From: Pisolithus tinctorius
Lineage: Eukaryota > Basidiomycota > Agaricomycetes > Boletales > Pisolithaceae
Length of the DNA stretch: 64,000 bases
Direction of reading: 5' to 3'
Assembly: GCA_024663395.1 (NCBI GenBank)
Contig: JANFAH010000013.1
Span: 992,001-1,056,000, forward strand
Each line of letters starts with the position of its first letter. Positions within the stretch are counted from its first letter, which is position 1. Below the pieces are notes generated by a model that had not been told where the DNA came from, ran no database searches, and saw only the letters and a list, made by a program, of their open reading frames with translations. A program made the translations under genes and the position numbers. Positions 44,540 through 58,988 of the stretch are shown one piece after another.

Positions 44540-45742
44540 GTATTGGACTTCCTTGAGGATCAACTACGTAAAGGCTACATCCGTCCCTCGAAGTCACCAC
44601 AAACCTCGCTGGTATTCTTTGTGCCAAAGAAAGATGGGAAGAAATGTATGGTTCAGGACTACCACTACCTCAACGAACATACAGTCAAGAATGTGTACCC
44701 TCTCCCTCCTATCTCCCAGCTCGTGGACAAACTCAAGGGTTGTAAACTCTTCACCAGGATGGACCTCCGATGGGGGTACAACAACGTCCGTGTCAAGGAA
44801 GGAGATGAATGGAAAGCCGCCTTTGTTACTCATAAGGGCGCTTACGAACCACTGGTCATGTACTTTGGCCTCTGCAACTCGCCATCTACCTTCCAAAACA
44901 TGATGAATGACATCTTCGGTGACATGGAGGACGTCCTTGTGGTCTATATCGACGACCTGATGATCTTCACGAAGACGGATGATGAAAAGGAGCATGACAG
45001 GATAGTCCTGGAGGTACTAAGAAGGTTGGAGGAGAATGACCTGTTCATCAAACCAGAAAAGTGCTTCTTCAAGCAGAAGCAGGTGGAGTTCCTGGGAATG
45101 GTGGTTGGATCCGAGGGGGTCAGCATGGACAAGAGCAAGGTCAAGGCCATAACCGAGTGGCCAGTCCCTACAAAGGTCCGCTCGGTACGAGCCTTCTTGG
45201 GCTTGGCGAATTTTTACCAGCGCTTCATCAAAGATTTTGCACAGATCGCCCGTCCACTCAATGACCTCACAAGAAAAGACCAACTCTGGACTTGGGGCCC
45301 TCGGGAACAACAAGCTTTTGATGCCCAGAAGGTCGCCTTCACCACCGCTCCTGTGTTAGCTTTCCCGGATCAGGATAGAGAATTCCGCTTGGAAACGGAT
45401 GCATCGGACTTTGCCACTGGAGCCGTGCTCTCTGTGAAGTGTGAAGACAACCTCTGGCGACCTGTTGCCTTTTATTCCCATTCCATGTCCCCTCCTGAAC
45501 AGAACTACCAGGTCTTCGACAAGGAAATGCTGGCCATAATTCGTGCTCTGGAAATGTGGCGACATTATCTCGAGGCCACCCCTTATCAGTTTGAAATCTG
45601 GACTGACCATGCAAATCTCCAGTATTTCATGAAGGCGCAAAATCTGGATCATCGCCAGGCACGCTGGGCCCAGTATCTCTCTCAGTTCAACTACAAGCTG
45701 GTGTACAAACCCGGCTCTTCAATGGCTAAGGCTGATGCCCTT
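44540..45742 (+). pseudogene. Gypsy-1 pol, RT and RNase H part
   Basis: This is the continuation of Gypsy-1 pol after Gypsy-2. RT motifs are FFVPKKDGKKCMVQDYHYLN, FTRMDLRWGYNNVRV, LCNSPSTFQ and the catalytic YIDDL (44945-44956), followed by the thumb (FLGLANFYQRFIKDF). RNase H begins FRLETDASDFATGAVL and continues to KPGSSMAKADAL, where the solo LTR breaks it at 45743. The next Gypsy-1 codons are at 58989 (SRRED). This part has no internal stop. Confidence 0.9.
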
Positions 45743-46456
45743 TGTCATGACTGTGCGATCGTCATAGGTCTTTACTCACTCCGCAACCTTTTCCGTTGGT
45801 CATTCGCTCACTCCGCACCAACTCCGCCCACCTTCTATCGTCTACGAACCATCTCCGCTCTGACTGCTGTCGGACTTGTGTCTCTCTCCTACCGGACTGA
45901 GCGGTCCGTTCTCTGAGGAGTCATGTGACTACCTTCACAGTCAGGTACTCCGCAGCGCGCTCACCGCATGGTCCAGCATCTGGACTATTTCCTTTTCTAG
46001 ATGTTCTGTGTTACCCATTCGTATGTCCTCCGTCTACCCTTCATTCGTCGTCCAGGAAGTTTTACTTGAAAATTTATGAGTCTCTGTATGTCAGTTCCAA
46101 TTCCAGTTACTGTACCTCCATAGCAGTATAAAAGCATGTACTGTACTCCGCTGTTCTTCAGTACGAATATCAACTTAGTTCCTACTCCCTCTGATTCTGT
46201 CTTCTGCCTGTCGGAGTTATCTCCGACTCTCCGTCTGTACTCTCCCTCTGAAATACGAGGGCTGAGATCATGCAAGGGGGTAGTGCACAAGCTAAACCTG
46301 ACGCCCTCACTCCGCTCTGCCTTTGTCTCGGCGGTCTTCGTTCCTGCCAACACTCCGCTAGTCGGAGTTCTGTCCCTGTGTGTTGGACTTGCTTCCGGAC
46401 CCTCCTCTAGACCTTATTAAGCGTCGGAGTTGGTCGGAGTAGGCCTGGACTTGACA
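45743..46456 (+). repeat. solo LTR of a third retroelement
   Basis: 714 bp with TGTCATGACTG...CTTGACA ends, flanked by an exact CCCTT duplication (45738-45742 and 46457-46461). It contains a TATA box (AGTATAAAAGCATG near 46124) and many CTCCG/CGGAG motifs. No coding part or second LTR is present, so it is what recombination between two LTRs leaves behind. It broke Gypsy-1 between RNase H and integrase. Orientation is not determined beyond the TATA direction. Confidence 0.85.
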
Positions 46457-46462
46457 CCCTTT

Positions 46463-47069
46463 CACCTGTGATTCCCACCCTGCCAATCTTATTAGAGGTG
46501 ATAATAATGCATGTGACACCCTCTTAATAGAGGGAAAATACTATACTTTCTGCCTCCTTCAATATCTCTTCAATAATAATTGTACTTAGTGTGTAGTACT
46601 CCAGTAGCCCGGAGGAAATAGTACTCTATTTATGCCGTCTGATGTCGGTGGCAATGGCCACCCCCCCCCCCCCCACGCCCCCTTGCGCTCGTTGCCGATG
46701 TCAGCTGACATCGGTGGCAGTTGCCACCCTCCCGTGCTCGCTGTTGCCCACGATGAGCTCGTATTTTGTGTATATCTCCCCCAATTGTGTACCAATTTGC
46801 CTCGGACTTTCTTTACCTTACTCAGGAACACATGACCGTTCTATTTGTTACCGGCTACTGCCAAACAGCGATGTCGGAAAGCGCTACCCTGCACGTGATG
46901 TATTTGTAATGTTGTTGTTGTATTTATAGTTTTATGATGTCAGCAGTTGTCGGTGACAGCTGCCGCCCCTCACGCCCCCTTGTGCTCGTTGTTACCCATG
47001 ACGAGCTCGTGTTTTGCACATATCTCCCTCAACTGTGCACCTATTAGCATCGCATTTTCTTTACCTTAC
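46463..47069 (+). repeat. KDZ left terminal inverted repeat
   Basis: It is the inverse of 58372-58980. It contains a C14 run near 46663 and a perfect 20-bp palindrome, CCGATGTCAG/CTGACATCGG (46695-46714). Two versions of a GCTCGTTG...CGAGCTCGT...TATCTCCC block lie at about 46738-46770 and 46983-47025, so the repeat is itself built of subrepeats. Confidence 0.9.
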
Positions 47070-47156
47070 TTGGGAGCACATGACGGTACTCATACTTAAT
47101 ATCCCCTGCGGAGGTTGATGATTTTACGCTCGAAATTTATCTACGGAAAAACTAAG

Positions 47157-50100
47157 TCAAGTAGTACTTTCGTAAATAGTAGCATCAAGGACCTCCAGCA
47201 CCATATGCGAAGTCTCCTCCTTCTCCTCCTCCTCCTCTTCCTCCTCCTCCAGATTCTCCTGAGTGTCTATATCGTCGGAATCCATCAACTGAGAGCAAAC
47301 AGTGTTGATTAACAAGGGCGGTATGATGACATGCGGCTTAGAGGCACTTTCACCAGGGCCCGTTCGCATGCTCTCGCCGAAAGAGAGAGAGCCCTTGTAG
47401 CTGGGCAGCTTGGTGATGTCGTGCAGGCACTTGAGGTGTTGGGAGGTGAAGCGACTGTGTATCGAGCAGTAATGAGCTATCTGATGAGCTAATGGGGGGT
47501 GGAGAGCTCGCGCCTGCTGCTCGCTCTCATCCAGGAAGTGCTCCTCGTCTCTCAAGTACATCAATAGCCTACGGGCTTCGACCTCTAGGCGTTCGATCTC
47601 CTCTCGAGCACGCAACAACTTGAAGTAATGGTCCATTGCGCTACGTCCAGCTGGTGTCGCCCATGGTCACTGTGACACGTCTTGCTGGGCATCTCGAAGG
47701 AGGTCGAATTCAGCGATAAAGGCATATTCAACTACCTCGTCCCACTTGAGAATGTGATGGGGGGGATCCATGGCACGTGCAGCAGTATTATATTGTTCGA
47801 GTGCTATGCAAATTGCACTGGAGCGCACTTGCAGCGCCTTCGCAATGTGCTTCCGCATCTTGTATCCTGTAGCTGTGGTGAGCACCGATGACCAATGTGA
47901 AATGATATGGACCAATCACTCACCGGTACCCGCACGGTTCATTTTCGAGAGCTCGAATATCCGCATGACGACAAGGGCTTCTAAATGGTCCAGCGCACGC
48001 TGGAAAGTCCTCTTTGTGACAAGACGTGCAGCATCGTGCCATTCGGGTCGCTCGGTGTCACACACCAAAGGTGTTGTGGACATGGTTACAGCTGACTCTG
48101 CCTAACTCGTTGACGAGTTGCGCACAATGCCCAAGCATGCAGATGAAGACTAAAGGCCTCATGTGTAGAAAGACTGTTGGACATGAACAGTCATCCTTCA
48201 CACAAGAACGAGTCGTCAGTGCTAAAGAGAAAAGAGCAAGCGAGTTAAGCGCGCATTAAAAGTTTTTAGCGCCCGTGTACGGCATTCCGGTTTTCGTCGT
48301 ATCTCCGCCGTTTCCAAAGATATCAACTCGGTTCACATACTCGCTTAAAGTGCTCAGCCCCACGATTCTTCCTTCCAAATTTGGAGAGGATCCTCGCACC
48401 CTACGCATTTCTACAGCACTCCATCCATCAGACACTCATTTCGCAAAGTCCATCAATCATGGCCACCTCTTCGTCAGTCATCTTGCTTGTCTCATTTGCC
48501 AGAGACAATGGCTATGTATATCTGCCAGGCATTCCCACCAGCTTCCGTCCTGAAGCCCCCTGGTTCATCCCGTCATTGTCAGCCCCATCCCGTCCCATGC
48601 AGCTTGGTCAGCGTGTTCTCCTTGTCAGTATGACTTCCAGAAGGACGTCCTTTGGTCGCCTCAGGTCTGTCACTCGGTTAGAAAGGTCTTATGTGGTCGT
48701 TTCAGTCTCCCCTCTTGATGAAGCATATGGATCGTTCCTCCCTGCTCCCTGCACCGTCTTTATTCCAGTCTCGTCCATCGTTCTTCCTGCATTGCGACAG
48801 CTGCAGTATAATCTACTGTCCTCCAGCCTCCCTAATCGCATTCATGACGAGTATGACATGCATCTTGCCTTCTTACTGCAAGATCCAGCAGAAGACGTCC
48901 CCCCTTCTCCTCCTCCTCCATCAGAACCCCATCCATGAAGTTTTTGTTAACTTCGCTGAGAGGATGGAAGGGTGGGAGACGCGATCGCGTATGCTCTCAT
49001 TGCCCCACAGACCCCCAATGCCCTAGCCCCCTTTGACACCTGACTCATGCCCTTCAATTCTGGAATTAATACTTCCCTATCTGGAAACACCGTCCATCTG
49101 TCATGCCATCTTTGGATCTAGAGATGTCTCCGCCGAGATCTAACTTGCATCGCCACCCCCTAATGTGATATCAGTGCGCTTACTCAGTTTCTGACTCCAT
49201 TTGACTCATTCTGTGATATTTTGACTATCCTTGACTCGTTCATTGCCAATACTTACCAATCTTCTTTGCTTGCTTACTTTTCATTTCTCGCTTACTCATC
49301 ATGATTACTCAGTCCTTACTCATTACTTACCAAGTGTTTGTGCCTTGTTTGTCACAAGCTGTGCTCCCCCCTCAGTATATAAACCCCCATGTACTTAGCT
49401 ACCGAGAATCAATCAAGAATCAATCAGGAAGCAATTCAGAAGTCATCCAGCAGTCAGTCCAGTGCCTATCTCGTCGTCGACAGTTGAGGCTCCACGAAGG
49501 GGTCTATCTGTCATCATTCATATACTTGGTAGTTGAGGCTCATTCGGAAGAGTCTATCTGCCTCCATCATTTCATCTGAAGCTTTATCCTCACACTTAGT
49601 CAGCAAGTTTGCTTAGTCACCCATCCACTCCTGCGTAACTCATCATCGACTTGCGCCAGGAGCATATTTTATCAAAAGTCCATTACCCCCAAGTACTTTC
49701 AGCTGAACACCTTCACTCTGTTCAGCATCCCCTTCCCAATCATTGTCCATTCGTCTTCTCCTGCGTAACTCGTCAATGACTTGCGCCAGGAGCACCTCCA
49801 CTTGAAGTCTCCCCCCACATCAGGTTTCTCTGCCCTCCAGGTTCCGCGGAGGTAAACCACCACTCGCTTGTATTTGTCTTTGGTGTTGGATTTGTTTGGT
49901 TTATACCAGCTTTCCACACTTTGACTCACATCAGGCGTCCAACGGCTGTCAATGTTGAGCTTACTCTCGAGATCCTGGACAATATGAAGATCCTTGTTGT
50001 ACATTTCTATGGCATGCTGGCGAGCTGTCTCCACCTTCCGAGTCTTGCGCGTGTACGTAGCATAGTCCTTCGGGTCGGAAGGTGTTGTGACATCCCATAG

Positions 50101-52511
50101 CACAGATTTCAAGTCTAGATCCTTCCTAAGGGGAATTAACTTTAGCAACCAGCGGTGTTATGAGAACTTACTTGCTCGCTTCAAGGTTCACCAACGCCCG
50201 CCAGTACTCCATCTGTAAGGTCTCATTTAGAGGTTCCATCTCAAGCCCTTCTAAATAGTTTCACTCCTCCTGAAGCCACGTAGTGAACTCGGTGTCAGCG
50301 GTGACCCCAAGTTCACGTTTGAGCGACGGCAACACGAATTCACAGTCCTGTATGATTGATAGTGCTTGCTTATAGTTGCTATATATGAAGTTCGCTATAC
50401 ACACGACTGTTAGAGGACAGTATGGGGGAACATGAAATGCATACTCACATATACTCGCATATACTTCATATGCATCATTATGGGAAAAATACGCATTGAT
50501 TGCTTGCTGACGATGGAAAGCACTCGCATAGCATAATGAGGATGCGAGCGCGTTAGACTTGGAGAACGTCCTCTCACATGTTTCGAGGTCTTCGAGGCCC
50601 AGTCCTTCGGTATAGACCGTCAGGTGAGAAAGTTGACACAATCGCCGGTGAGCATGACCATGAAACGCTGGGACCAGGCAGGTATGTCGATTCTGCTCGA
50701 CGTCCTTGCCAATAACGCTCTTTGCAAGGGTGGTGGAGAACTGACACCCGATGTCGTATCCACCTCCGAGATCGGCCCCGAATACCTTCATCAGCCTCGA
50801 CACAATGGCAATTGGATATTTGGCGCTGTGATTTGAATTTATCGTTAATTCTGCTGTAACGAGAGATACACTCACAGTTCTCTGCTCTGTACCATGTCAG
50901 CAATGAGCAATGACATCCCATGCCGGAAAATGGCCAGGAATATCCCAGTCTCGTCATAGACTCCCCATGTCTGTTTCGTCTTCTGCTCATCCATGTTCTT
51001 CCAATGACTGGCGCATGGATTCTCATCTCCTGTCTGACCAACTTTGCATGAAGATGACTACGAGAGAATTCAAACTCGAACTTACCTCGATATCCTTGCT
51101 TGTACTTTGAATGGGAGCACTTTGGGCAAAAGAATCAACGAATTCACGAGAGAGGTAGTGTGTCATTGGTACCTTTTGAGTTGTAGGCAGCTCGTGTGAG
51201 TCTTCATCTTCTGCAATGCGACGGAGTATACGCTTCAAGGAATCGTTACCGTCCATAGCATATAGGATCTTGAACTTGAGACGGGGCTCATCTTTCAACT
51301 CGTAGGTGCACGCAGGACATGCATGCTGCAAGCGCCAGTTGTTAGATGTCCTAGACAATGCTTCCATAACGAGGGCTTCCACTCTGTTTAAGATGTTGAG
51401 GTAGAGATCGAGCGTGATGGAGAACTGACGGGATAAGTAGTGCCGGAATGCGACCTGTTGTGTATCAGTAGACTGCCAGATCCAAGACGAACTACTTACA
51501 CCTTGTAAATCACAGATGGTCTTGACAAAGGCCTGAATGGAGAAATGCAGACTACGGAGGCGAGCAACACAGTATAGTTCGAGAGCATTGATCATGATAG
51601 CCACGGAAGGTCTGATTGGGGAGCACGGCATGAATCCTTGCCTCACGAGTGCGGAGGCGATGTAAGAGTCGTCTGCACTGATTACAAGATTCACTTTCTC
51701 AGCGCCTAAATGGTTGCCATCAGTAACACCCTTCGCACAGAACTATAATGGCCCACGAAACATGTCTACCACATGCACTCTCCAAGTTCCAGCGCTCGAT
51801 CCATTGCCCAGGTCCTCAGCCTCCACCCTCTCCGCAAAATGGCCCCTAGCTGGCATCGAGGCTTGAGCATGGTTCCATTCCAGGTAAGAGCGAGTGAGTG
51901 CGGGCATTTGCAAATCGAATGCCTGACTGCGTCGAATAATTCGATCTCAGCGTGTGCGATGATCAACGTGCTTTGTGCGCTTTTCTGACCTGCGGGGTAC
52001 ATACTCAGTTAGAATGATTTTCGAGTAAGTTCATGTTCTTACCCTGCTTCAAAATCCGAATACATATCTCTTATCAAGTCGCTCAGCTCCCCGCCCGTGT
52101 TGCTAATCTCCAGAATGTGAGTACCGTCCAACACACCATCAAGAACGGCCTCCTCACAATCCTCCCAGCTATCCGAGTTATCAATATATATCTCTGTCCT
52201 TTAGCTTGACCGTTATACCTATGCAACGCTTGCATGTTGGCCAGCGCCTCCGGCGTCACCTCTTCATCAGGGTAAGTTCCTTGTACTCTTCCGGGTGGGA
52301 ATCACAGGTGATACTCACTGCCAATTCTCTCTGCCTGGTCATTTTGGGCTTCTGCTGCCTTCGCTGCAAGTGTCTTCTGGTTGTAAACCGTATGCGTAAG
52401 CCGAGTGCGCGCGACTCCTTGCGACCCTGCTGAGCGGACTTCTTGCACTAGACCAAGGGAAAGGCGAGTTCTATTTCTTGGCTGCTTCGTCCGTAATTTC
52501 CCTGGGCTCAT
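47157..52511 (-). CDS. KDZ transposase, multi-exon, with a large insertion near the 3' end
   Basis: The start at 52511 gives a basic N-terminus (MSPGKLRTKQPRNRTRLSLG). Later exons carry EAVLDGVLDGTHILEISNTG (about 52170-52110) and, at 51694-51060, ASALVRQGFMPCSPIRPSVA, the zinc-binding HACPACTYELKDEP and DGNDSLKRILRRI. The catalytic region follows: GVYDETGIFLAIFRHG (about 50965-50920), GGGYDIGCQF (50770-50741) and GLGLEDLETCERTFSKSNAL, the likely D-D-E. Then come WLQEE (50270) and AIEMYNKDLHIVQDLESKL, ending RWTPD before a GTGAGT donor at 49935. The protein resumes at about 48062 (RPEWHDAARLVTKRTFQRAL), reads FELSKMNRAGT-GYKMRKHIAKALQ and ends with REEIERLEVEARRLL and a poly-Glu tail, stop at 47157. 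All blocks are those of CxC-type KDZ transposases. Activity depends on splicing out the 1.87-kb gap. Confidence 0.85.
48063..49935. mobile_element. 1.87-kb insertion or giant intron inside the transposase gene
   Basis: Ordinary introns in this window are about 50-80 nt, but here 1,873 bp separate two adjoining parts of the transposase. The interval holds a plus-strand ORF (48459-48938), an LTR-like stretch with TATATAAACCCC at 49374-49388, two direct copies of a 37-bp block (CTCCTGCGTAACTC to GCGCCAGGAGCA) at 49628-49663 and 49757-49793, and a two-unit repeat with GTTGAGGCTC at 49486 and 49532. This looks like another mobile element that landed in an intron. Its exact ends were not found. Confidence 0.5.
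48459..48938 (+). CDS. unrecognised ORF nested in the transposase gene
   Basis: A 160-codon frame from the Met at 48459 (MATSSSVILLVSFARDNGYV) to 48938, opposite in strand to the transposase. It is beta-strand-like and Ser/Pro rich, with TSFGRLRSVTRLERSYVVVS in the middle and a PPSPPPPSEP tail. I do not recognise it. A second frame overlapping its end (LNFAERMEGW-like reading near 48947-49026) suggests the ORF may continue through an intron or frame change. It could be the gene of the inserted element. Confidence 0.4.
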   Translation: MATSSSVILLVSFARDNGYVYLPGIPTSFRPEAPWFIPSLSAPSRPMQLGQRVLLVSMTSRRTSFGRLRSVTRLERSYVVVSVSPLDEAYGSFLPAPCTVFIPVSSIVLPALRQLQYNLLSSSLPNRIHDEYDMHLAFLLQDPAEDVPPSPPPPSEPHP

Positions 52512-52645
52512 CGTTTGTTCACGACGTGTTTCCTGCTCCTACATAAGCTTGACATTTACCACGTGATCGTATCATATACCTGACAGCTTATTAACCTCCT
52601 TGTTCCAATACCTCTGGCACGCTGTTCCATCAGCTTGATAACTTG
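52512..52645. promoter_or_regulatory. divergent promoter between KDZ transposase and cargo gene 1
   Basis: Only 134 bp separate the two start codons, which point away from each other, so both promoters must overlap here. It includes a CACGTG (52560-52565, ACCACGTGATCG). Divergence at this spacing suggests joint control. Confidence 0.5.
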
Positions 52646-53497
52646 ATGAGCGAAGAGTCCCGCTCACACTCTGGCCTATCCTGTCGCTATTCCTCTAGCG
52701 CGCTTCATGAGTTGCTAGAGTCAATGCAGCTCTCAGGTAATTAATATTTTTCTATCTGCCATGGTGATTGCTACTAACTATGTATTGCCTACAGATATCA
52801 ACTGCGACACGGTCACTTGGACTTGGACGACGACAGAAGCGTCTATAACATTTTCATGCATTCCCCAGACACCGCGTACACCACAGATCCGGACGCTGTC
52901 ACACATACTACAGGCATCGCCCAGGTCAAGGATGCCTGTGTCGACGGTTTCCTCCCGCTTGGTGACTAGCCCATCATCCACTCCTAAATCTCGTCGCTCG
53001 CCCAAGTCAACTCCCCCCACCCAACAGCCGGCACCGGCCCTGAGTAGTCCCCCGCCTACAGCTCCATGCCCTGTGCCGGTTTTTCCTCTCCACTTTCCTG
53101 GGCCCCATCCATCGACATTTCTGCCTCCTGACACCATGGACGGTATTGATGGCTACTATGTCATCACAGTAGGACAGGAAGTTGGCATTTTTTTTCAATG
53201 GTCAGTTCCGCTTTCAGATAATATTTATCTATACAGCTAACAATCAGAAGGCTGGCGGTTCAGGCGCGTGTCACCGGCGTGCCTGACAATAGTCATAAGA
53301 GGTTCAAGACGTTTGCCGCAGCACTGCAAGCTTATACTACCAACTACAACGAAGGATTGGTGTATGCGACTCCAGTTCCTAATGGCCCATTTTGGCCCAA
53401 GTCTTTAGATGATATCCTCGGTCATATGGAGCCTTCTTCCACGGCCTGTAGTTCTGACGAGCTGTGGTCCCAAGTAGCTAAAGCTGAATTACTGTAG
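52646..53497 (+). CDS. KDZ cargo 1: protein with RNase H1 N-terminal (viroplasmin-like) domain
   Basis: Exon 1 is 52646-52736, from MSEESRSHSGLSCRYSSSA to the start of an intron (GTAATT...CTACAG). Exon 2 starts at 52795 and reads DINCDTVTWTWTTTEAS, then a long Ser/Pro/Thr linker. A GTCAGT intron (about 53200-53248) joins YYVITVGQEVGIFFQW to LAVQARVTGVPD and RFKTFAAALQAYTTNYN. The last part, about 60 residues, is the fold shared by RNase H1 N-termini and the caulimovirus viroplasmin protein, which binds RNA/DNA hybrids or dsRNA. No RNase H catalytic domain follows. The protein may bind nucleic acid for the transposon; this is inference. Stop at 53495-53497. Confidence 0.65.
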
Positions 53498-53754
53498 ATA
53501 AATCGTGTCAATGCAATTATGTGATACACCTCCATCCAGTGAGAGGACCCCTTCATAGCTTACAACCTGGTCTTGAGTTGAAATGGAAGTGGCCAGTAAT
53601 TCGTCGTCAGTGGTTACTTGTATACATTGTGCAAGTTGCTAGGTGGTATATCCTTTGAGTATTGCTAAAGACTCCTACTCGTGATATGTACTAGCATATG
53701 TAGGTATTCTGTTATAGATGTAGTGTGTACACGCTCCGGATGAAGGTATGTACA

Positions 53755-54060
53755 TAGATTGGCAGTCGCGAGACTCACAAAATATGGTGTTCACTATGGT
53801 GTTCGCTATGACGCGCTGGCTCTCCATCGCATTCTCGAGACACTAACGTTAAGCCAGGTGCATGCCGGGCACTTATCAAGTTAGAATATACATGTAGTAC
53901 TGAGATCTCAGGGTTATCTGCGCTCAATAGAGGCATATGGATCGCAAGGCTTACAAAACATGGCATTCGCTATAGTGTTCGCTATGGAAATGTTCGGATT
54001 TCCATTTTGTTCTCGAGGCACCACATATTATAACTGCTTCTACATACTGGCATGCGATGG
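53755..54060 (+). repeat. two-unit tandem repeat inside the KDZ element
   Basis: Two diverged units share GCGAGACTCACAAAATATGG-type and GTTCGCTATG-type blocks at about 53766-53850 and 53942-54025, about 177 bp apart. They lie between cargo genes 1 and 2 and are not coding. Confidence 0.6.
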
Positions 54061-54096
54061 CAGGATCGTGGGCACAGAAATATATCATATTTGAAT

Positions 54097-54520
54097 CTAC
54101 GTATCAGCATGTAGTAGCAACATCTCAAAGAACTTCACTTCCGAAGCTACATTAACACACATGTCATAGAAACTTCCTAACGAGGTGGAAGGCACTTCCA
54201 TCTGCGCACCATGAGAAATCCTACGAAGGCGGGATAAAATCTCCTTTCCTTCCTCGATATGGACCCTCATTCCTGCCCAGAAGCGACTGAGCGCTGCAGG
54301 ATCAGACTTCGAGCATACAGATTCCTTCAAGATCTCCAACTTGTCTGGCCATCGGTCTTCTGGCTGCCAGTCCACACACCATAGCTCTATAGCATGCCTG
54401 ATGGGAGCAAGAGTTTCCACCGACGGAGCAGCAGTATGCTTGATGGGAGCAAGAGTTTCTGCCGACACAGCAGTCTGCCGAGAGCACTTTGATGATTCTC
54501 GCTGCCTATAACATCAGATC
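54097..54520 (-). CDS. KDZ cargo 2: unrecognised small protein
   Basis: The 123-codon frame ending at 54097 reads WCVDWQPEDRWPDKLEILKE, LSRFWAGMRVHIEEGKEILS and FYDMCVNVASEVKFFEMLLL, a helical pattern. Its N-terminus contains a duplicated peptide (ETLAPIKHTAAPSV/ETLAPIRHAI) from a direct DNA repeat of about 40 bp (54398-54465). An acceptor TTATAG near 54512 and a further coding-like bit at 54535-54575 suggest at least one upstream exon. It is not a family I know. It could help transposition or be a captured host gene. Confidence 0.45.
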
Positions 54521-54899
54521 AGCGGCACCTCATTCAAAGTTGCGAGGAACGCCTACTGGAGTCTTGTCCTACAAACCACGCAGTACGTTTTATTGGGTCA
54601 AAAATTGTTGGTACTTGCCCTGTACTTACCTTGCAACTCGGAGGCATGCCTTTTCATTCTGTGCCTTGCGGACCCTGTGTAATAGCATCAGAGAGCCAAC
54701 TGCGTGGATGGGTGATTATACGTACCCAGGCTTTGAGAACCAACGTTGAGTAGCAAGCCACTGACGATCACTACGGTCTGACTGCGAGCATTTAGCCTTG
54801 GATGGTTTCTTCTTCACTGTCAATATTTAGCCATGCTTCGAAAGGGCAAGTCAGTTTGTATAAAAGACTTACTCGAAGCATGCAGTGATTGACAGACTT

Positions 54900-55976
54900 T
54901 GGATAAGCCAACTACGCTACTTAGTTCCTGACTTAGCTCAGGTATAAACATATGTAAATACCTCGTGGTAACGGAGGGCACGGGCACCCGCACTCAACCC
55001 CTATTTTCTAAATGAAATATTGTAAGCTTCTTGAAAACACTACACGTACACAGCGGGAATTAAGTGTTTGGACCAGCCATGCTCTATATGTCTGTACGCT
55101 GAACGTGCAATACACGTTTATCAGTTTTATGGGTACAGTCAAATACCCGTCTTCCTCTCGTTTCCACCCACCTGCTAACGATATGCTGCAAGCGTTGGAA
55201 TCGGCTCCATGAAATTCTTTGTTGTCTCAATCATGGTGCGTCGCAACTGTCATTGTGACTGAGCATAGTTGACATGTGTATTTGAATGCTTACTATTGCC
55301 CATAGGTATTCAGCAAATTTCGCGCTAATTTCTCTGAGCTGATGCTCGTGCTATGACTCGACGCATTCCTGCTGGGTAGAGGCACTCTTGCTTGGTATCC
55401 CGGTGGGTCTAACTGTCGCTGATCTATCCCGAGCGTAGTTGTGGCGTGTACCATGTAGCTGGTGCGAGACCACCACACCACTCAAAGGTCATATAGAGTA
55501 TGGATATTGGACGTTCTTGGTAAGTAACTCGTCGACGGTACGACAGTGATGAACCATACGTTGTAGTTCCAGGTACCCTATACTGTGCATTGTCCACTGG
55601 TAGAACCCTATCTCACCACCACACACACGTGATGCGATATGGTGCGGCGTGATCGCGTGTCACGGTGTTGCGTGCCTCCGTTCCACAAAATTATCTGAAG
55701 GTACTATCTGTTGTCTGGTTTTGGTGTGGCAACATGGCTTACAACTGAGACTCTAGGTGCCCCGAACGTATGGTGTTGTCGGCTGCGTCCATGTGATTCA
55801 AATGCAAGGTGTGCGCGACGTCAATCAATAAATATTGTGTTGTGCCGATGTCACGGTGATATTGGACTTTCGAGTGGCATGAATGATCAACACATATCCT
55901 GCCAGCGTGAAAATATTCTGGTGTGTCAGTGTCTTCCTCTCAGACCTCTCCCCTCCGCTCTCATAGTACTGTTAGT
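54900..55976. other. KDZ interior without a recognised gene
   Basis: Two short frames (55012-55212 plus and 55711-55980 plus) have no protein-like composition. The stretch ends in the promoter of cargo gene 3. Confidence 0.4.
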
Positions 55977-58112
55977 ATGAACCACGCTGGCGATGATTCT
56001 CAACCATCTGATATGGCTCCGTCTAATCCTATTTCATTTCTTGATATGCTCAACAGCGAAGATAACCCCCTCACCGGCCTTAGTTATGGTAATATATATT
56101 TTGCTTCCGTTGAATTTTTCGCTCAACTGCATGAGCCCAGCAGGTGCATCCGCTCGTAACGAGACAACCGCGTTAATCCCTGCGAATAATTTGTCAGTCA
56201 CATACTTCCATCCATATCATAGACGGTGTCCCTGACCTTACCTCAGCGTGTCTTCAACATATAGACCGTCGTTCGGCCTGCCTGCCGCCAACATTCCACC
56301 AGTCAATTACACTTGGCCAACCTCCAGTCTACCCAGTGGCCTGGACGCTACCTCGGTTTGGCCAGTCTCTTCACTCAACGAGCTGCAGACTGCTGAGGCA
56401 AGTTCATGCGCAAGCAATGTACCCGCCGGTCACCTCAGTGGCCTGGTCACTACCTCGGCTTGGCCGGCCTCTTCACTCAACAGGCTACAGAACGCAGAGG
56501 TAAGGTCGAGCTCAATCGACATGTCAACTGCTGGTCAATTCAGTGGCCTGGGTACTGCCTTGACTTGGACTTCCTCCTCCCCCAACAGACTACAGAGCGA
56601 CAAGCGCACAATCAACCCTGTCACAAGCTTTGTCGAGAATGTGAAATCCTCAGCAAATAGTTCCTCCTGGCGTGCTCGGAATCCTGTCCAACCTATCAAA
56701 GCACGGGCGCCGTGCCTCCTTTCGACTGCCGAGAAATCCTCTCGCTCATTAACGAAGGAGGACAAGGCCAAGCGAGCGAAGGAACTCCATGATGCACTCG
56801 AGAGTTTCCTCCACTCTCAGAACGCGAAGCTTGAAGCCATTGCCACAGCCAACAATGTTACTTTTGACCACATCAAGGGCCTCATCAACACGAAGACCAA
56901 CTATCACCACAGCCGCCGTGCCATGCTACAGAATGCCCTGGTCCACACCAAATCACTCGAAGTCAATACAGGTAAGTATACTTGACTGTACCATTATACA
57001 AGTGCTAACAAGCAAGTCCAGATCGCCCTGTTGGAGAGAAGCTACCCATGGCGCAACTTCAAGAGTTGGTCAAGGTCGATTTAGAGGCGCATCCGCTCTC
57101 ACAAAGTGAAGAAGAACTACTCATCGAGAAACTTCAAGAATATCGCGAGCTCAAGACACGTGGCACCCGCATGAACAACACTGCGACGGCACGCGATCTC
57201 AATTACACAGTAGATAGGATCACCAAGGAGGTATGTCACACTTTACTTATGAACTTCTTCGTGGTAAGGATGATCCACAGCTCGAAAACCTTCGTGACCG
57301 AACTGGCATATATGCCACATTATTTGTCACACGTGGCCATGTCAATGACACCATCCAGTCCACATGGACCGTGACCGACAACTCAGCAGACTTCTGGCAG
57401 GACGTAATCCAACAGCCAGTTGCTGACATCGCGCGCAAGTATGAGCAGTGGGCATGTACTCAGGGTCAAAGTAAGTTCATTCAGCGTTAGGTGACAGCTG
57501 CTCAACCATAGGCCCAGATATTGTGGAGTGCGATAACCTTGCGAGCATCAGGAAACAAGTAACCAAGACGATTTTGGATGGTCTCAGTGGGTGCCTCGGA
57601 GCAGTGTTTTCCATAAAACTGCACTAAACATCGCCACAGGACAAGCCACAAACAAGAGGAACATCGTAATGAATTATCTCAATTATGAGTGCAGTATAAT
57701 CCTGGCATATGGTGTCAAGCTGGTTGGCTGGCCTACCGACGTCAAGTTTGTTAATCCATCAAGTATCGGCGTTATATCCGAGGTGATCAGACTACGAGAC
57801 ACACTCCGCTCCGGTGCATGCTTTTGGAAAAAGCTTTCGAAGCGCGAGCGACAGGAATTTTCGGTGCAGTGGGAGAGCCAAGTCACCGCAGGTGAGGCAG
57901 TGCTTAAACCACGCAAGAAAAGAGCGGATGCAGGTGTATCGCGCAAGCGCAAGGTACCCAGTGGTGCAGAGCTGTCTGCAGACAAGGAGAACAGGTCAGA
58001 GGGCCCACCCAGAAAGAGGTCGCGTGGATCATGCAAGAGAACACTCCCGAAAAGCGTTGAATTCATTCAAGACATGGATGATGATGATAACGAGGAAGAC
58101 CTGGACGATTAG
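55977..58112 (+). CDS. KDZ cargo 3: large basic coiled-coil-like protein
   Basis: Starts MNHAGDDSQPSDMAPSNP at 55977 and needs several short introns (GGTAATAT near 56088, GGTAAGTA near 56970, GTATGTC near 57230, CAAAGTAAGT near 57466). The N-terminal third has three 34-36-residue repeats with the pattern SGL-x-(T/A)-x-x-x-W-x-x-SS-x-N-x-LQ (56326-56620). A helical charged region follows (DKAKRAKELHDALESFLHSQ and EEELLIEKLQEYRELKTRGT). The core then reads RTGIYATLFVTRGHVNDTIQ, FWQDVIQQPVADIARKYEQW and, after another intron, MNYLNYECSIILAYGVKLVG. The tail is lysine/arginine rich (KPRKKRADAGVSRKRK) and ends in an acidic run. I recall this type of protein as recurrent in agaricomycete genomes near such transposons, with no known function. 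Confidence 0.6.
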
Positions 58113-58371
58113 CTTGCGTACTCTTGCTAATACATAATGTGTCGAGAGTTGTTATACATACAAGAAATCTGTTAACAGTAATGTATAATGTGTTGTGGAC
58201 ACTGGACAACAGTGAGCTCGCTGTAGGCAACAGCGAGCATGGGTGGAGCATCCGCTGTCAGTGCATTGCCGTTGACTGCCGATGTCAGACATAAATAGAT
58301 ACATTATGATAATTATAAATACTAGCAAGTGATGGTAATGGTACTATTCATTGCCGCTGGGCCACCTGCAT

Positions 58372-58980
58372 GTAAGGTAAAGAAAATGCGACACTAATAG
58401 GTGCACAGTCGAGGGAGATATGTGCAAAACACGAGCTCGTCGTTGGTAACAACGAGCGTGAGGGGGCGCAAGGGGCAGCAGCTGTCACCGACAACCGCTG
58501 ATGTCATAAAACTATAAATACAACAACAACATTACAAATACATCACGTGCAGGGTAGCACTTTCCGACATCGCTGAAAATTTGGCGGTAGCCGGTAACAA
58601 ATAGAACGGTCACGTGTTCCTGAGTAAGGTAAAGAAAGTCCGAGGCAAATTGGTACACAATTGGGGGAGATATACACAAAATACGAGCTCGCCGTGGGCA
58701 ACAGCGAGCGTGGGAGGGCGGCAACTGCCACTGACGTCAGCCGATGTCGGCAACGAGCGCGAGGGGGCGTGGGGGGGGGGGGTGGCCATTGCCACCGACA
58801 TCAGATGGCATAAATAGAGTACTATTTCCTCCAGGCTACTGGAGTACTACACACTAAGTACAATTATTATTGAAGAGATATTGAAGGAGGCAGAAAGTAT
58901 AGTATTTTCCCTCTATTAAGAGGGTGTCACACGCATTATTATCACCTCTAATAAGATTGGCAGGGTGGGAATCACAGGTG
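58372..58980 (-). repeat. KDZ right terminal inverted repeat
   Basis: It is the inverse of 46463-47069 and carries the same palindrome, degraded on this side, and the same G/C run (58767-58777). It ends GGGAATCACAGGTG at 58980, followed by the CACCCTTT duplication. Confidence 0.9.
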
Positions 58981-58988
58981 CACCCTTT

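Follow-up and report, generated by a model that had tools for sequence, protein, structure and literature searches.

A KDZ-superfamily transposon of Pisolithus tinctorius that probably carries a constant set of three accessory genes

We analysed a stretch of 64,000 nucleotides from the ectomycorrhizal basidiomycete Pisolithus tinctorius (assembly GCA_024663395.1, contig JANFAH010000013.1, positions 992,001 to 1,056,000; hereafter the window), in which positions 46463-58980 are occupied by a DNA transposon of the KDZ superfamily, 12.5 kb long in this copy. The element carries a transposase gene, T, and three further genes, B, C and D, which are read in the order T(-), B(+), C(-), D(+) between its inverted ends (Table 1). 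Its left tip is CACCTGTGATTCCCACCC, and its right tip, GGGTGGGAATCACAGGTG, is the inverse of the left one. The inverted ends measure 610 and 612 bp and are identical in 576 of 614 aligned columns (93.8%), while the 8-bp sequence CACCCTTT is found directly outside both of them. Together with a Pfam KDZ match, these limits bear out a preliminary description of this DNA, which had proposed a KDZ transposon with inverted ends of about 608 bp that could be delimited to the base by an exact 8-bp duplication. With a probability of roughly 0.8, we consider the element to be a copy of a multigene cut-and-paste KDZ family in which B, C and D represent a constant accessory set. They are regarded as a constant set because the same genes recur, in the same order and orientation, in a second family that shares no DNA similarity with the first.

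The transposase was recognised by its KDZ domain, which gave a Pfam match at 9.1e-47 on a single window exon of T and at 2.8e-76 (256 bits; cut-off 26.6) on the spliced T of a sister copy. A CxC-type cysteine cluster is an optional feature of the KDZ superfamily, and in the T of the sister copy it stayed below the Pfam cut-off: there was a partial CxC1 match (E 0.019, 15.6 bits; cut-off 26.9) and a partial CxC3 match at E 0.047 only. Candidate stretches for a catalytic D-D-E-type triad in an RNase H fold, whose residues were picked by eye, read YAMD.NDSLK, GYDI[GR]C and TCER; they are present in seven of the eight copies of the window family (family 1; the eighth is frameshifted) and also in the second family (family 2). 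Nine of the ten T introns were tabulated in the eight copies and had GT-AG borders throughout, except that one copy has lost 2 bases at a 5′ splice site; the tenth intron was set after the other nine had been tabulated. The T frame is open in four of the eight family-1 copies. In the window it is disrupted by premature stops and by a nested long terminal repeat (LTR) sequence at 48056-49930, which is absent from all seven sister copies. The preliminary description had counted three gene candidates besides the transposase, on both strands. B, C and D answer to this description. The idea of an independent cargo gene at 47157-48055 was rejected, as this segment forms the 3′ portion of the interrupted T and is continuous with the remainder of T in the sister copies.

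The nested LTR sequence belongs to a very abundant family: its first 505 bp gave 1782 candidates in the genome, of which 40 were scored. Several of these form pairs on the same strand with a spacing of about 9.6 kb, as would be expected for the LTRs of full elements. The sequence also holds an open frame of ~159 codons at 48461-48938, which is unusual for an LTR.

An internal copy of the element tip lies in intron 1 of T, 8 bases past the 5′ splice site and in the orientation of the right end. All eight family-1 copies agree in the first 17 of its bases. Read-through of the in-frame stop at this position was considered and rejected, as the stop belongs to an intron of 57 nt whose GT-AG borders are conserved. 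Family 2 has a T intron at the same place; no internal tip copy was seen by eye in that intron, nor did a tip scan of the family-2 element return one. Conceivably, the internal copy could be an operator through which the transposase controls itself, or it could be a spare end. That it marks a smaller mobile unit was rejected by eye from the tip and end matches.

Gene B encodes a Ser/Pro-rich protein with an RNase H1 N-terminal domain (Cauli_VI, hybrid-binding), as indicated by a PF01693 match at 2.2e-9 on a sister copy. A profile of its relatives matched the N-domain of yeast RNase H1 (1qhk) at E 1.3e-4 and its human counterpart (3bsu) at E 0.12. The frame of B is open in all eight family-1 copies, and that of C, a small and partly basic protein, in six of the eight. 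The public model P0063 of C has 211 aa and fits an extra 12-nt exon at 54568-54557. The D protein starts with a low-complexity part, followed by a conserved core and a tail that is first basic and then acidic; its frame is open in three of the eight copies, including that of the window, so B, C and D are all open in the window copy and T is broken. Searches of Pfam, NCBIfam and PDB recognised no known family for C or D and gave only scattered weak matches for them, and none of B, C and D showed an enzyme domain.

Table 1. Coordinates of the transposon, its genes and its flanking duplications in the window
Feature	Position	Strand	Details
Left target duplication CACCCTTT	46455..46462	.	8 bp, exact
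Left terminal inverted repeat	46463..47072	+	610 bp
Gene T, KDZ transposase	47157..52511	-	11 exons, 986 aa in sister copies; Pfam PF18758
T exons 1-6	52511-52319, 52261-52219, 52168-52043, 51989-51757, 51705-51500, 51454-51086	-	
T exons 7-9	51033-50876, 50825-50449, 50394-50172	-	
T exon 10	50125-49931 continued at 48055-47924	-	split by nested insertion
T exon 11	47866-47157	-	
Nested LTR sequence inside T	48056..49930	.	TG..CA, 1875 bp by reading; imperfect 4-bp duplication
Internal tip copy (CACCTGTGATTCCCACCC)	52293..52310	-	18 bp, in intron 1 of T
Gene B	52646..53497	+	247 aa; exons 52646-52736, 52795-53200, 53251-53497
Gene C	54097..54951	-	207 aa; exons 54951-54873, 54816-54726, 54674-54630, 54505-54097
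Gene D	55977..58112	+	615 aa, seven exons
D exons 1-4	55977-56088, 56144-56225, 56265-56971, 57022-57230	+	first two junctions tentative
D exons 5-7	57281-57470, 57512-57586, 57640-58112	+	
Right terminal inverted repeat	58369..58980	-	612 bp
Right target duplication CACCCTTT	58981..58988	.	8 bp, exact

To find further copies, the complete genome (92.5 Mb in 221 contigs) was searched with the ends of the element, as the preliminary description had suggested. The 14-base tip gave 52 exact matches, while the reversed control gave none, and a search with the ends gave 37 scored matches. Eleven sister copies were fetched whole or in part, of which only the seven clean full-length ones were aligned. 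These were picked by the clean spacing of exact tips, a choice that favours young copies. Read end to end, the seven sisters measure 10,396-10,686 bp, and every one of them is flanked by a perfect 8-bp target duplication, which makes eight out of eight when the window copy is included. Among the eight copies, pairwise identity amounts to 89.0-97.9%, and the terminal inverted repeats are 592-612 bp long and 89-99% alike. The gene models, which had been set on the window sequence, were subsequently tested on this alignment; all four genes are present in all eight copies, some of them damaged. The usual length in family 1 is 10.4-10.7 kb, and 12.5 kb, the size suggested by the window, is not typical: the window copy is longer because an LTR sequence of ~1.9 kb was inserted in its transposase gene. 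The family has moved in the past, as is evident from its duplications and copies. The preliminary description had gone further in suggesting recent activity from this copy; that view is supported in part, for the past spread of the family. The T of the window copy is broken, and none of the eight copies has four open frames.

A search of the genome with one T exon returned the family-1 copies and a second set of sequences that are mostly 55-65% identical to it, and with a D exon this second set appeared at 34-38% identity. Two copies of this family 2 were fetched, one of which (C61) could be delimited, while the other (C2) lacked a defined right end. C61 is 10,979 bp long and is flanked by an exact 8-bp duplication, ACGGAGAA. 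The family-2 tip, CACCTGATACTCCC, is distinct from that of family 1, and in C61 it reads CACCTGATACTCCCAC. In a blastn comparison, C2 gave no match to the window element. At the protein level, however, C61 contained all four genes in order, with identities of 29-65% over pieces of T, 31-48% for B and 31-36% for D; its homologue of C was 26% identical over 102 aa and 65% over 17 aa. Reversed-protein controls gave nothing at E 0.01. The two families thus agree in the content, order and orientation of their four genes, at 26-65% identity over the matched pieces.

This arrangement was also evident across the genome. When neighbouring matches up to 25 kb apart were joined, so that interrupted copies were counted, 22 loci, some of them interrupted, had the full set arranged alike, as T(-), B(+), C(-), D(+). 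Another 15 groups were incomplete: eleven hold two or three of the genes and are colinear without exception, and four hold a single gene. The grouping used 33 of the 62 B matches (one per locus), 28 of 28 for C, 29 of 32 for D (three C-terminal fragments were left out) and 32 of 34 for T (two pieces of one locus were left out). A separate count of proximity took in all 32 D matches, 33 B, 28 C and 32 of the 34 T matches. Within 10 kb, a T match was found at 21/32 D, 26/33 B and 22/28 C places, and one or more of the remaining three genes at 26/32, 32/33 and 28/28 places, respectively. The proposal that the cargo is a constant part of the family is supported by the 22 four-gene loci, the colinear partial loci and the second family. 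The opposite outcome, cargo found only here and without a linked transposase elsewhere, was not observed, as the genes are linked to KDZ matches at other loci of the same genome. The preliminary description had also raised the idea of a distinct KDZ subfamily. In a tree of 15 KDZ sequences, all from this genome (11 of 20 fetched stretches plus four rows from families 1 and 2, with no named references), the four family rows were together to one side of a branch supported at 100/99; long branches were flagged. Within this genome, it is therefore supported that families 1 and 2 form a distinct KDZ subgroup.

The immediate surroundings of the element show how it came to its present place. The window element is inserted at the junction between an LTR (45743-46456 by reading, ending in ..TTGACA) and a Ty3/gypsy pol gene. 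The LTR itself sits in the pol gene, the left part of which ends in ..GGCTGATGCCCTT at 45742, with a 5-bp duplication, CCCTT. No empty site lacking both the LTR and the element was found among 40 scored of 1291 candidates, and other pol copies served as the reference instead. The target duplication of the KDZ element comprises the last two bases of the LTR and six bases of pol. The four other pol copies fetched all have GATGCCCTTTCTAG, so that the CA in the duplication on the right, CACCCTTT, is most readily accounted for as a copy of the LTR end. The duplication is genuine. As reconstructed from these junctions, the order of events is the insertion of the LTR into the gypsy pol gene, then of the KDZ element at the right edge of the LTR, and finally of the LTR sequence of ~1.87 kb into the transposase gene. 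Within the left terminal inverted repeat there are two subrepeats of 137 bp, 248 bp apart and 75% alike, and a perfect 20-bp palindrome, CCGATGTCAGCTGACATCGG, at 46695-46714.

The changes among the eight family-1 copies were next inspected for signs of selection. A plain dN/dS (ratio of nonsynonymous to synonymous rates), pooled over seven copies without the most diverged one, gave 0.40 for T, 0.67 for B, 0.95 for C and 0.41 for D, but was weak and was replaced, as decay at CpG dominates the changes. In seven of the eight copies, the private changes are mainly C-to-T at CpG (from 20/28 up to 49/58). In the window copy, CpG transitions make up 45 of 55 private changes and all but one of the 46 private C>T/G>A changes; in the most diverged copy they amount to 271 of 574. 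These private CpG changes would match the pattern left in a basidiomycete by methylation-driven decay or by a process at CpG resembling repeat-induced point mutation. The selection test was consequently limited to changes shared by at least two family-1 copies, with CpG transitions set apart and one shared non-CpG stop in T omitted. With an expected ratio of nonsynonymous (N) to synonymous (S) changes of 2.6-2.8 (2.78 for T), and with P values that are rough since the copies are related, the shared non-CpG changes were 26 N and 33 S in T (P 1.6e-6; 1.3e-5 under a stronger transition bias), 13 N and 16 S in D (P 8e-4; 0.002) and 7 N and 8 S in B (P 0.03; 0.049). This shows purifying selection on T, on D and, weakly, on B, and not on C.

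Relatives of the accessory genes were found to different extents. D had 62 database matches, two of them unnamed and the rest called hypothetical or uncharacterized; the latter come mainly from the Boletales (among others Pisolithus, Suillus, Melanogaster, Hydnomerulius and Hygrophoropsis) and the Agaricales (among others Laccaria and Mycena), with one Piloderma in addition. B had 20 matches, of which 17 were named and three unnamed, and the 17 named relatives are all in the Boletales. The seven matches of C were all from P. tinctorius. That species is missing from the B matches, and with the gene present at many loci of its genome, B is probably unannotated there. In Melanogaster broomeanus, one relative of B and one of D carry consecutive tags (80958 and 80959) on contigs that are both given as 65,382 bases, which is a hint that B and D may also be linked outside Pisolithus.

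Another gene known from KDZ elements, TET/JBP, was sought near T. The genome holds at least 160 KDZ matches and at least 150 listed TET/JBP domain matches, most of the latter away from the listed KDZ matches. With the 150 listed matches, TET/JBP was found within 10 kb of none of the 32 T loci and of 13 out of 120 other listed KDZ matches, which lie outside both families and to which more could be added. We consider this contrast suggestive but weak, as the copies of a family are not independent.

Several findings weigh against B, C and D as a constant set that serves the element. None of the eight family-1 copies has all four frames open together. For C, the shared non-CpG changes were 4 N and 1 S (P 0.79; 0.83 under the stronger transition bias), without a sign of purifying selection; since C is still recognisable between the families, constraint over a longer time is apparently needed to account for it. 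All four genes have CpG transitions that appear neutral, and no constraint is seen on private non-CpG changes (15 N and 1 S in T), which would fit copies that decay after landing. Furthermore, T is missing within 10 kb of 11 of the 32 D matches, as is D for 11 of the 32 T matches; these are mostly copies that are interrupted or fragmentary. The linkage of D to KDZ was observed within this genome, and neither D nor C has a recognised fold.

Some of these findings would agree with B, C and D being passengers, caught once by an ancestor of both families and without any role in transposition. Some genes of a fungal Helitron are described as captured (PMC4289320), and the lack of purifying selection on C among copies and the neutral look of the CpG and private changes point the same way. 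We nevertheless regard this as quite improbable: the four genes were kept at 26-65% identity where DNA similarity is gone, shared changes are constrained in T, D and, weakly, B, and 22 loci have one gene order and orientation in common. It is also unlikely, in our opinion, that B, C and D form a module against silencing, standing in for the TET/JBP dioxygenases that may have this function elsewhere among KDZ elements. In Kojima 2025, TET/JBP genes carried by transposons were proposed to serve in escape (PMC12730594), the concentration of private changes of the window copy at CpG is as expected for methylated targets, and no listed TET/JBP match lies within 10 kb of T. The latter contrast is weak for the reason given above, however, the family copies decay by CpG changes regardless, and B, C and D revealed no enzyme domain. 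A composite, in which the ends of a plain KDZ element flank unrelated host genes at one place, would agree with the KDZ descriptions we could consult, where the transposase is accompanied by a cysteine cluster and by no further gene than TET/JBP. This can practically be dismissed, being already refuted by the sister copies, all seven of which have this content between perfect duplications, and by the second family with the same four genes.

As for the likely mechanism, T would cut at the tips CACCTG..CAGGTG and insert the element with an 8-bp stagger. D, with its basic tail and nuclear-looking sequence, and probably C may bind the subterminal repeats and help to build the transposition complex, a role modelled on that of the second protein encoded by other DNA transposons with several genes. 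Through its domain for binding RNA/DNA hybrids, B might tie this complex to element transcripts or R-loops, or protect them; it could act through an RNA/DNA hybrid or through double-stranded RNA. The window copy, which has lost its own T, would be movable only with the enzyme of another copy, and copies with an open T do exist elsewhere in the genome. That the four-gene layout was kept across two families implies that transposition or survival probably needs more than a transposase. In addition, the D family, composed of hypothetical proteins mainly from the Boletales and Agaricales, gains a likely home and a testable function, and with B, a DNA transposon has a hybrid-binding domain of the RNase H1 type, which raises the question of a role for RNA or an R-loop in its life cycle. 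A more speculative idea, which we hold to be doubtful, is that the three-gene set of this KDZ lineage, with D as a large new protein family, replaces TET/JBP in the function it may have for other KDZ elements, and both shields or reactivates methylated copies and serves the transposition complex. If true, nested members of the lineage may have been mistaken for "captured genes" in reports on other transposons of mushrooms.

In size, inverted ends, 8-bp duplications and KDZ transposase, the window element resembles KDZ1, KDZ2 and KDZ3 of Cryptococcus neoformans, which were caught moving and, in the portion of the account at hand, measure ~9-11 kb with inverted ends of 139-241 bp and duplications that span 8 bp in KDZ1 and 4-8 bp in KDZ2 and KDZ3 (PMC12810828). 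For these elements, the text consulted names only a transposase with KDZ and CxC1 domains (PMC12810828), whereas the window element has 610-bp ends, no CxC above the Pfam cut-off, and B, C and D. A regular extra gene is a feature shared with the TET-positive Kyakuja and Zisupton of Agaricomycetes, which, according to the relevant sections of Kojima 2025, combine a KDZ transposase with TET/JBP; the termini of Kyakuja, CA..TG, are also alike (PMC12730594). Two Laccaria Kyakuja families are given there with 7-bp duplications and no inverted repeats, in contrast to the 8 bp and 610-bp repeats found here (PMC12730594). The window element accordingly shows neither Kyakuja hallmark, and none of the 150 listed TET/JBP matches lies inside it or within 10 kb of any of the 32 T loci. 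Duplications of 8 bp, which the same sections state for Zisupton (PMC12730594), were found in all eight family-1 copies and in the delimited family-2 copy, and terminal inverted repeats, likewise a Zisupton/Dileera trait, are present. The Zisupton elements of fish and nematodes also have a multi-exon KDZ transposase and inverted ends; the available text describes their transposase genes alone, without mention of B, C or D, and the nematode elements without detected duplications (PMC9297572). By its transposase, the window element belongs to KDZ, and by its 8-bp duplications and inverted ends it appears Zisupton/Dileera-like. MuDR and En/Spm are multigene plant DNA transposons in which a transposase is joined by accessory proteins and the ends are long and repetitive. 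The comparison with these concerns how they work, as they belong to other transposase superfamilies and no sequence relation is claimed.

In the literature searched, with supplementary files outside its scope, no KDZ element with B, C or D was found described, and extra genes other than TET/JBP are little described in these texts, though KDZ matches are numerous in the genome. The closest likeness, by description only, is in the Pleurotus ostreatus Helitron helpo1.3, a copy longer by 10.7 kb, whose capD-capE-capF block was published as Helitron-captured genes (PMC4289320). No Pleurotus protein was among the database matches of B or D. In the part of the report that was available, the block includes a PF01693 gene and a putative transposase gene with an RNase H fold, between flanking complementary repeats (PMC4289320), and to us it looks like a nested KDZ element of the T-B-C-D kind.

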